Positions 25,769-28,290 of a stretch of 64,000 bases of DNA are shown here, in pieces (position 1 is the stretch's first letter; each line of letters begins with the position of its first letter). The position numbers and the translations under genes were made by a program. The DNA lies in the NCBI RefSeq assembly GCF_030433685.1, contig NZ_JAROCF010000001.1, forward strand, positions 3,410,001 to 3,474,000, written 5' to 3'. The stretch comes from Leifsonia williamsii (GTDB lineage Bacteria > Actinomycetota > Actinomycetes > Actinomycetales > Microbacteriaceae). The notes beneath the pieces are model-generated. The model made no database searches and was not told the DNA's origin. It was given only the letters and a program-made list of their open reading frames with translations.

Positions 25769-26536
25769 ATGATCGAGTACGCGACCGCCGACGGCATCGC
25801 CCGCATCACGCTCAACGCGCCGGAGCGCCTCAACGCGCTCGGGCCGGACGACCTCCGGTCGCTGTCCGAGGCGTACGAGCGGGCGGAGGCCGACGGCGCG
25901 CGGGCGCTGGTGCTGCGCGGCGAGGGCCGTGCGTTCTGCGCGGGCCGCGACATCGCGGGCGTCGACCCGGCGACCGACGACGTGCCCGGTTACCTCGGCG
26001 CCGTGGAGGCGCTGCTGCGGCGGATCGCCGCCTTCCCTGCCCCGACCTTCGCGGCGGCACAGGGCGCCTGCCTCGGCGTCGGGCTGGGCCTGCTGATCGC
26101 GACGGACGTCGTCTACATCGCCGAGGATGCGAAGGTCGGCTCCCCGTTCGCCGCTCTCGGCGCCGCCCTCGACTCCGGCGGACACTGGCTGCTCGTCTCG
26201 CGCCTCGGCCCGCACCGCGCGCTCGACCTCATCTACTCCGGGCGGCTGCTGTCGGGGGTGGAGGCGGTGGCCGGCGGCCTGTTCTCCCGCGCCATCCCCG
26301 CCTCGGCACTCGTGGACGAGGCGGAGGCGGCGGCCGCGCGGGCGGCAACGGGCGCGACCCAGGCCTTCGTCGCCTCCAAGCACATCGTGGCCGCGCTGCG
26401 CGACGGCGAGCTGGACTTCTGGGGCTCGGTCGCCGCCGAAACGGAGGCCCAGGAGCGCCTGCGCGCGACGGCGGACTACCGCGAGGGCTTCGCCGCGTTC
26501 CAGCAGAAGCGCCCGCCGCGGTTCACGGGTCGCTAG
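25769..26536 (+). CDS. paaG: Enoyl-CoA hydratase/isomerase, PaaG-like
   Basis: The 255-aa crotonase-fold protein has APERLNALG near residue 15, the oxyanion-hole GRAFCAGRDIAG near 53, and GACLGVGLGLLIATDVVYIAED near 98. The position after paaE and the AFCAGRDI signature suit the ring-1,2-epoxyphenylacetyl-CoA isomerase that makes oxepin-CoA. ATG 25769 has GTGTGAAGGAG upstream, 10 bases after the paaE stop. Its stop codon overlaps the stop of the convergent SecB-like gene, the point where base composition drops sharply. It is the last gene of the paa operon. Confidence 0.88.
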   Translation: MIEYATADGIARITLNAPERLNALGPDDLRSLSEAYERAEADGARALVLRGEGRAFCAGRDIAGVDPATDDVPGYLGAVEALLRRIAAFPAPTFAAAQGACLGVGLGLLIATDVVYIAEDAKVGSPFAALGAALDSGGHWLLVSRLGPHRALDLIYSGRLLSGVEAVAGGLFSRAIPASALVDEAEAAAARAATGATQAFVASKHIVAALRDGELDFWGSVAAETEAQERLRATADYREGFAAFQQKRPPRFTGR

Positions 26537-26994
26537 TCGTCGCTATCATCGCCTTCGGTCGCCATTGCGGCTACTCCTTCGAAGTCAAAGGGCAACGAGA
26601 AGGGAGGTAACCCCATCTCGCGCGTCATCGTTTCGATTAGCATTCGATGATATGGATGGCTGGTTTCGTGCGCGAGCCCGGTCGTCTGGTTGAGGGCACC
26701 CTGTTCCACGTCGAGCTCGGTGATTTCCCTGCTGGCTCGCATCACGACCGCAAAACGGCTAGTTACCTTTCCAAGCGGGGCGGAATCCTCGATCGAGGCA
26801 TCGAAAGCCGTGAAGATATACTGCGTTTCCACCGCGACTTCGCCGCGCTTCCGGGAATACGACGCTTTGGGGACTGAATAGTCCAACTCCACAGCCAGTG
26901 AATCCCACGTCTTACCCTTGCGCGTCAGACGCTCCCAGGATCGCTCGAGATGGACAAGCTCAGTTACCTCGAAGGAAAGATTCTCAATCGTCAT
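26533..26994 (-). CDS. SecB-like chaperone of a TAC module
   Basis: The 153-aa protein has the length of SecB and its most conserved C-terminal block: HPYHRMLIETMTREMGLPP leading into FSLPFDF (residues 113-138), corresponding to the SecB pattern of a Pro-x-x-Arg helix followed by GFPPLxLPPxxF. The upstream part alternates beta strands (EVAVETQYIFTAFDASIED) as in the SecB core; the tail is acidic. It is the third gene of a toxin-antitoxin-chaperone operon, overlapping the antitoxin by 11 bases, with AAGGGGG before ATG 26994. By analogy with M. tuberculosis Rv1957 it should protect the antitoxin from aggregation and proteolysis. No SecA/Sec role is implied. Base composition is much lower in GC than the paa genes. 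Confidence 0.78.
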   Translation of the reverse strand: MTIENLSFEVTELVHLERSWERLTRKGKTWDSLAVELDYSVPKASYSRKRGEVAVETQYIFTAFDASIEDSAPLGKVTSRFAVVMRASREITELDVEQGALNQTTGLAHETSHPYHRMLIETMTREMGLPPFSLPFDFEGVAAMATEGDDSDD

Positions 26995-27550
26995 CTGTGT
27001 CCCCTTGCGTCAAGGGCGTCCATTTCAGTCGCGCGTGCGGTATCCGCTTCGCGGTGATGGAAGCGGCATGGAATTGTCCTTCTGGGGCGTTCGGAGCGAA
27101 GCCCTCTGGCACAAAGGTGAAAGAAGGGACGCGCTCTTCACCTCTGACCGCTACACCGATGTATACGTCGGAGTTGATGAACTCACTTTGGTTTCGCGAG
27201 GCCGTCCCGACCTCGGGGGCCTCTTGCTCTTTGGACACAAGCTCCGCGTCCCAGTCATAACCAAGGGCGCGCAAGTACCGACCCAGCGTGCTCACTCGAA
27301 GGTCGTCATCGCCTCCCAATATCTGTGACACTCGACCCTCGCTCACTCGCAGCTTTTCAGCCAGATCTCGCTGGCTCAAATCAGCACGCGCGGCGAAAGC
27401 CTTTGCGAGAAGCACATGGGCCTTGAGCTGCGAATCGGCGGCGGCAAGCTCAATCGAGAGAACTGGGTCCTGCTCAACCATCTCCACTAGCGACCGTCGG
27501 TGAGTTCGAGAGACGGGCCGAGACGGCTTCCGTCTAATTTCGCGTGTCAT
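26984..27550 (-). CDS. HigA-like antitoxin with C-terminal extension
   Basis: The 188-aa protein has a basic N-terminal stretch (RRKPSRPVSRTHRR), an Xre-type HTH at about residues 58-78 (LSQRDLAEKLRVSEGRVSQI) with following helix VSTLGRYLRALGYDW, then about 80 residues beyond the HTH that are Phe/Tyr/Pro-rich (VYIGVAVRG, VPSFTFVPEGFAP). Chaperone-dependent HigA antitoxins carry a C-terminal chaperone-addiction segment here; this extension is the candidate. It overlaps the toxin gene by 17 bases and the SecB-like gene by 11. GAGGA precedes ATG 27550. It would neutralise the toxin and repress the operon. Confidence 0.78.
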   Translation of the reverse strand: MTREIRRKPSRPVSRTHRRSLVEMVEQDPVLSIELAAADSQLKAHVLLAKAFAARADLSQRDLAEKLRVSEGRVSQILGGDDDLRVSTLGRYLRALGYDWDAELVSKEQEAPEVGTASRNQSEFINSDVYIGVAVRGEERVPSFTFVPEGFAPNAPEGQFHAASITAKRIPHARLKWTPLTQGDTDDD

Positions 27551-28070
27551 GCGCTATATCCTCACTACGAATGCGGTGCGCCTCATCGATCTCTTTGCGA
27601 GGCGTGCGCTGACTGGACTTGGGGAAGCAGTGCGTGAGCCGCACGTTCCAGTCGAACTCCGGGAACTCCCAATATTCTGCGCCCGGCACCGCTTCATCTA
27701 TGCTCCCGATCCGCAGCTTTGGGGAAAACAACCCAGCGCCGTCGGTGTCAAACATCGGGAATCGTTTACTAGAAACCTTGAACTCCCAAATGCCGTCTTC
27801 AAGGTCGTTGAAACTGTGCTTGTACGGCGGCTCGCCATTTCTGGCGAAGTACCTGAGTAGCGACAGCAGCTTCACAACGTCACCGGGCTGATCCTCGTCA
27901 GGCCACGGCCCCTCGTCGGGATGGTCCGTGTCCGGATACCAAAGCCCCTCTCGCAGTTCGCCCAAGGCGACAGCGACCGGGGACCACCCACTAGCGTCAA
28001 CGGCGCACTCGACCACATGGAAGTCATCGTCTCCGCCTCCTGCCAGTAAGTCTCGCACTACTTTAGCCAT
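27534..28070 (-). CDS. HigB/Gp49-family toxin, extended form
   Basis: The 178-aa protein carries the HigB/Gp49 (RelE-superfamily) landmarks: a helix pair VVKLLSLLRYFARNGEPPY near residue 65, LEDGIWEFKVSSKR at 90-103 (family pattern LxDGlWELRvxxxgR) and RLTHCFPKSSQRTPRKEI at 144-161 (family pattern LLHGFVKKTQKTPkrEI) followed by basic HRIRSED. Canonical members have about 100-125 residues. The excess is an N-terminal region of about 60 residues with an acidic, Pro-rich loop (DTDHPDEGPWPDEDQP) and an insertion of about 30 residues between the two motifs. The expected activity is ribosome-dependent mRNA cleavage. ATG 28070 has GGGGAGG upstream. It is the first gene of the operon. Confidence 0.75.
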   Translation of the reverse strand: MAKVVRDLLAGGGDDDFHVVECAVDASGWSPVAVALGELREGLWYPDTDHPDEGPWPDEDQPGDVVKLLSLLRYFARNGEPPYKHSFNDLEDGIWEFKVSSKRFPMFDTDGAGLFSPKLRIGSIDEAVPGAEYWEFPEFDWNVRLTHCFPKSSQRTPRKEIDEAHRIRSEDIAHDTRN

Positions 28071-28116
28071 TGGTAAAGCCTCCCCTTAGCCGAGGATAGC
28101 GTAGCTGCGCGCGGGC

Positions 28117-28230
28117 TTAGATGGTGCCACCATGGGCGCGGGCACCTGCCCACGCGGACTCGCGCTGCTGGTTCCAGGTGGCGATACTCGGCTGAGAGAT
28201 CCATAGCTCGATCAGCGGCCGAACAAACAT
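28117..28230 (-). other. Possible 37-residue ORF or gene remnant upstream of the toxin
   Basis: ATG 28230 opens a 37-codon frame (MFVRPLIELWISQPS, ending ARAHGGTI) that looks protein-like in composition but has no ribosome-binding site and no recognisable family. It lies in the 220-base gap between the TAC operon and the flavin monooxygenase. It could be the truncated 3' end of a gene disrupted by the insertion, or chance. Confidence 0.2.
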
Positions 28231-28290
28231 AAATTACGCGACGTGACGGAGCGCGTGCGCCAGGGACCTCCATCCCGCATCCTGGAGCGC

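Follow-up and report, generated by a model that had tools for sequence, protein, structure and literature searches.

A probable toxin-antitoxin-chaperone operon with a SecB-like third protein, inserted beside phenylacetate genes in Leifsonia williamsii

Introduction

What are three overlapping genes of foreign composition doing at the end of a phenylacetate operon? The question is raised by a stretch of 64,000 nucleotides of the Leifsonia williamsii genome (contig NZ_JAROCF010000001.1, positions 3,410,001 to 3,474,000), hereafter the window. A first-pass annotation had read the trio as a toxin, an antitoxin and a SecB-like chaperone, in the order known from Mycobacterium tuberculosis HigB1-HigA1-Rv1957, and had let the proposal depend on a Gp49/HigB match for the first gene, a SecB fold for the third and co-conservation of all three. 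Each of these was found, and the trio is most probably a type II toxin-antitoxin-chaperone (TAC) module of the SecB-like class that arrived by horizontal transfer. The genes are:

28070-27534, minus strand: gene 1, putative toxin, 178 aa, Gp49/HigB-like, with an N-terminal extension and an insertion
27550-26984, minus strand: gene 2, putative antitoxin, 188 aa, a helix-turn-helix (HTH) protein with a C-terminal extension
26994-26533, minus strand: gene 3, 153 aa, putative SecB-like chaperone

The three proteins and their families

The three minus-strand open reading frames (ORFs) overlap by 17 and 11 bases, with coordinates and lengths exactly as first described. Gene 1 belongs to the Gp49/HigB family, as had been read from its motifs: it matches Pfam PF05973 at E 8.7e-7 (29.4 bits against a curated cut-off of 23.9), and a 17-member profile of its family, the window toxin plus 16 relatives, matches HigB (PDB 6af3) at E 3.2e-4. 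Toxins of this family are ribosome-dependent mRNA endonucleases, and gene 1 may well act in the same way, judging from its sequence family. Gene 2 bears the expected HTH domain (Pfam HTH_31 E 9.1e-7, HTH_3 E 1.6e-6, both above cut-off) followed by a tail of 90 residues. Its family profile finds in the PDB first a LacI-type regulator (E 8.6e-6), then HigA2 (7ewc, E 9.1e-5), with HigA3 (6lty) fifth at E 0.0058.

The SecB assignment of gene 3 is borne out by structure and by family. The predicted model, with four strands, one long and one short helix and a motif PYHR...G.PPF.LP, has the SecB fold and finds the Rv1957-ChAD complex 5mtw as its top Foldseek match; Rv1957 also comes up in a sequence search with the family profile.

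Co-conservation of the third gene

Is the third gene a regular companion of the pair? The toxin family was searched in 398 genomes of the same family (7 matches, its own included), 366 Microbacterium genomes (4) and 396 phylum-wide genomes (3), by pattern in contigs of 84,980 species (61 stretches, 15 relatives) and in IMG/VR (253 stretches, 1 relative). Removal of duplicates (the window's own genome and G069, M. suaedae, locus L019, recur among the matches), with L005 (E 0.004) and L002 left out, gave 19 distinct loci: the window, L010, L012-L026, L064 and L067. The trio had been predicted to travel together, and it does: a SecB-like gene directly follows the antitoxin in 15 of the 19 (the window, L012-L018, L020-L024, L026 and, weakly, L067). 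Two loci (L019, L064) instead hold a gene with the domain of unknown function DUF6941, and two (L010, L025) show no third gene within the sequence covered, which for L010 reaches about 1.1 kb past the antitoxin.

Third genes were first chosen by eye and then verified with a profile that left out each locus in turn. In all 14 cases the chosen gene outscored every other ORF among the 41-90 at its locus, at E 2.7e-44 to 1.3e-5 (best competitor 0.0048). Five of these are near-alike mycobacterial fused proteins, an easy test; the other nine loci gave 1e-17 to 1.3e-5. The third gene of L067 scored E 0.004, the next ORF there E 3; the two DUF6941 loci and the two with no third gene gave no significant match to the profile (best E 0.13). 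The recurrence of the third gene in its place across genera is more than chance.

Run by itself on 112 same-family genomes, the SecB-like profile matched two, that of the window and G274. In the latter the gene (L071:1477-2040, minus strand, E 8e-9) comes after a different pair, a phage excisionase/regulator-family protein (PHROG 2620, E 1.2e-11) and a small ORF that is HicA-like by eye and has no Pfam match. In five mycobacterial loci (L013, L014, L015, L017, L022) the third protein has about 330 residues, with a SecB-like N-terminal half and a conserved C-terminal part. One of the 14 third proteins has a Pfam Bestrophin-like match (E 7.7e-5).

The antitoxin tail and a proposed mechanism

If the third protein serves the antitoxin, the tail is where it would be expected to act:

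26987..27256, minus strand: antitoxin tail of 90 residues, proposed from a comparison of tail lengths to be a ChAD-like (chaperone-addiction) region

Within the toxin-family loci, 71-125 residues follow the HTH domain in the ten loci whose SecB-like gene is not fused, 52 in the five mycobacterial loci with the fusion, and 89-90 in the two DUF6941 loci, whose tails look by eye like those of the SecB-type loci. The shortest tails, of 35 (L010) and 32 (L025, by eye) residues, stand where the third gene is absent, in keeping with tail and third protein going together; this contrast rests on two loci, both long branches in a poorly resolved toxin tree. The 52-residue mycobacterial tails have a RYVAR motif in common.

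These observations suggest the following scheme. The gene 1 product would be a ribosome-dependent mRNA endonuclease, as its family implies, and the gene 2 product would repress the operon and neutralise the toxin. The 90-residue tail would leave the antitoxin prone to misfolding or proteolysis, and the SecB-fold protein, on the model of Rv1957 and from the tail comparison, would capture the tail and let the antitoxin fold and survive, perhaps holding it until it folds on the toxin, by analogy with Rv1957-HigA1. Should stress, or possibly phage proteins, remove or titrate the chaperone, antitoxin levels would fall and the toxin would act.

Several results weigh against a chaperone-dependent module. 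The four loci with no third gene or with DUF6941 indicate that members of the toxin family need not have a SecB-like partner. The tails are poorly conserved in sequence, and a search for inverted repeats 5' of the toxin gene, as a possible operator, found none. The 153-aa protein alone has no Pfam match, no PDB sequence match at E<=10 and only E 0.14 (11.9 bits against a cut-off of 143) to the NCBIfam SecB model NF004392, and Pfam SecB at E<=1 matches just one of 14 family members (E 0.025). As no single-sequence SecB match is significant, the identification rests on family and fold.

The same four loci would fit a pair that works without the third gene, the SecB-like protein being an accessory such as a sensor or expression modulator and the antitoxin not being chaperone-addicted. 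Against this, the shortest tails are found just where the third gene is missing, and the SecB-like gene lies directly 3' of the antitoxin in most of the family. An accessory role is unlikely, and we favour the TAC module.

Insertion, composition and distribution

How did the trio come to lie here? That its setting is a phenylacetate operon stands up: the upstream neighbours match PaaC (E 3e-60), a benzoate-dioxygenase-type reductase (1.6e-23), PaaE-like by position, and a PaaG-type isomerase (1.2e-34) of the 1,2-epoxyphenylacetyl-CoA isomerase family. The neighbour on the far side is a dimethyl-sulfide-monooxygenase-like flavoprotein. The trio and the PaaG-like gene are convergent, the trio covering the last 4 bases of the latter.

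26537..28233, no strand: insertion by comparison with congeners, lying between the PaaG-like stop codon and a conserved TTACG..GTGACG stretch (by eye) before the monooxygenase gene
28079..28086, minus strand: Shine-Dalgarno-like AGGGGAGG ahead of the toxin ATG, read directly from the sequence
27657..27752 (approximate), minus strand: extra stretch of about 33 toxin residues, absent from HigB 6af3, beside the family's invariant DTD motif, from the profile alignment mapped by eye onto the family alignment

Of the 28 genomes available for the genus, the window's included, 25 have the PaaG-like gene; 19 congener loci were compared and five more congeners with a PaaG-like match were left out. Both flanks lay within the roughly 1.5 kb fetched in nine of the 19, separated by about 26, 27, 94, 124, 143, 155, 390, 952 and 1,071 bp, a few of these values being slightly overstated since the monooxygenase match begins some residues into the protein; in the other ten the monooxygenase lay outside the fetched sequence. 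The trio with its upstream region, about 1.7 kb, thus occupies a site that holds little or other DNA in the nine congeners. Two congeners, L052 and L057, have other stretches of about 1 kb there, the one in L052 holding a gene that looks by eye like a PAP2 phosphatase, hinting that the interval is a small insertion hot spot. Direct repeats across the inserted stretch look like chance, and a promoter and terminator scan was uninformative.

The foreign composition noted at first reading is pronounced: GC is 0.56-0.59 and GC at third codon positions 0.62-0.68 in the trio, against 0.92-0.97 for the latter in four neighbouring genes, and its 1,538-bp stretch (GC 0.583) lies below every same-length stretch of the window sampled each 100 bases. 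So strong a mismatch with the host could mark a decaying, silent island without present function, and two relatives, in Subtercola lobariae (L016:3962-4408) and Mycolicibacterium sp. GF69 (L022:4079-4354), have open toxin frames without the N-terminal part, copies that may consequently be inactive or start elsewhere. In the window, however, all three frames are intact, with overlapping starts and a purine-rich, ribosome-site-like stretch (by eye) ahead of every ATG, and the toxin scores above the Gp49 cut-off; decay is very improbable.

The module is also rare and patchy. In the 398-genome sample, the nine other genomes listed for the genus gave no match to the toxin profile; the toxin as a single sequence matched 3 of 198 genomes of the order and nothing in plasmids or viral contigs. 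The third protein matched itself only (1 of 198 order genomes), nothing in plasmids, phages or viral contigs, and within its own genome only a chance-level second match (E 0.142). An antitoxin search gave weak matches in five plasmid records, and the antitoxin profile found nothing in viral contigs.

This rarity, the foreign composition and one family member on an IMG/VR viral contig (L067) would suit a phage-sensing TAC of the CmdTAC type, in which a phage protein competes for the SecB-like protein that holds the tail and so releases the toxin. On the other hand, neither the toxin nor the third protein matches a PADLOC model at E<=1 or any of 50,697 phage records (toxin E<=0.01, third protein E<=0.1). 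Phage sensing is possible, if doubtful; it is compatible with the TAC explanation, to which it adds a trigger.

DUF6941 and the third slot

Can another protein take the place of the chaperone? In two Microbacterium species it appears so by position:

L019:5025-5423, plus strand: DUF6941 gene directly after the antitoxin, Microbacterium suaedae, profile E 5.9e-22
L064:574-981, minus strand: DUF6941 gene directly after the antitoxin, a second Microbacterium species, profile E 1e-21

The profile, built from five rows of other loci, had no match in the 10 kb surrounding the window trio, nor in either locus that has no third gene (L010, L025). The DUF6941 model matches beta-sandwich domains and is predicted to be an Ig-like beta sandwich; SecB was not among the 50 structure matches listed for each DUF6941 search, which excludes nothing. 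A distant relationship between DUF6941 and SecB found no support (hhalign probability 2.3%). The idea that DUF6941 is a TA-specific (toxin-antitoxin-specific) domain was rejected, since 10 of the 14 DUF6941 loci within the family appear by eye to stand alone.

A tentative idea, which we hold somewhat less probable than its contrary and which rests on two species, is that the third slot is exchangeable: the long tail would create a dependence on a third protein, met in homologous operons by two unrelated folds. DUF6941 would in that case represent another class of chaperone or sensor dedicated to TA systems, distinct from SecB, and chaperone addiction a general, convergent wiring of such systems. 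The toxin tree is mostly unresolved (one of 15 inner branches starred, with two long branches meeting), and switches among SecB-like, DUF6941 and no partner are for that reason not reliably countable.

DUF6941 also recurs elsewhere. Five loci (L033, L037, L039, L040, L068), grouped by eye, share a cassette in which DUF6941 comes after two uncharacterised genes; neither of these has a significant Pfam match (L037, L068), and PADLOC gave nothing better than E 0.018 for them (L033, L037, L068). In L033, from Agreia, the TAC is followed by the DUF6941 gene at a distance of about 1.5 kb. On a viral contig (L069:6-775), DUF6941 (PF22091, E 1.6e-18) comes after a gene that is HicB-like by eye and has no Pfam match; the contig ends upstream.

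Comparison with known systems

The operon extends the SecB-type TAC systems of actinobacteria by a divergent lineage, whose third protein goes unrecognised by Pfam and PADLOC. Moreover, homologous TA pairs with a SecB-like partner, with DUF6941 and with none are natural experiments, which make it possible to ask directly whether it is the tail that calls for a third protein and whether a protein of unrelated fold can serve. If DUF6941 does fill the slot, a domain so far without an assigned function acquires a role that can be put to the test, and an unrelated protein in the chaperone's place could show how toxins come to depend on a third partner.

The closest known relative is the M. tuberculosis TAC, represented by the 5mtw complex of Rv1957 with the ChAD peptide of HigA1. 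Rv1957 shares about 14-16% identity with the 153-aa protein in structural alignments, and HigB1 (125 aa) and HigA1 (149 aa) are shorter than the window toxin and antitoxin, the latter with its tail of about 90 residues. The HigB structures 6af3/6af4 align with the toxin family by profile in two segments, a WE(F/L)(K/R)...R core and F.K.sqkt, but lack the family's N-terminal extension and the residues beside the DTD motif (profile positions 99-131, opposite 3 residues of 6af3). The SecB export chaperone (1qyn, 1ozb, 1fx3) differs in turn: the window protein falls below the curated SecB cut-offs, PF02556 included, and lies in a TA operon, and canonical SecB had no match in the host genome. CmdTAC, a toxin-antitoxin-chaperone system with an ADP-ribosyltransferase toxin, likewise joins a SecB-like third partner to a TA pair, but its toxin family differs. 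The window locus is, overall, a divergent addition to the SecB-like TAC kind already known.
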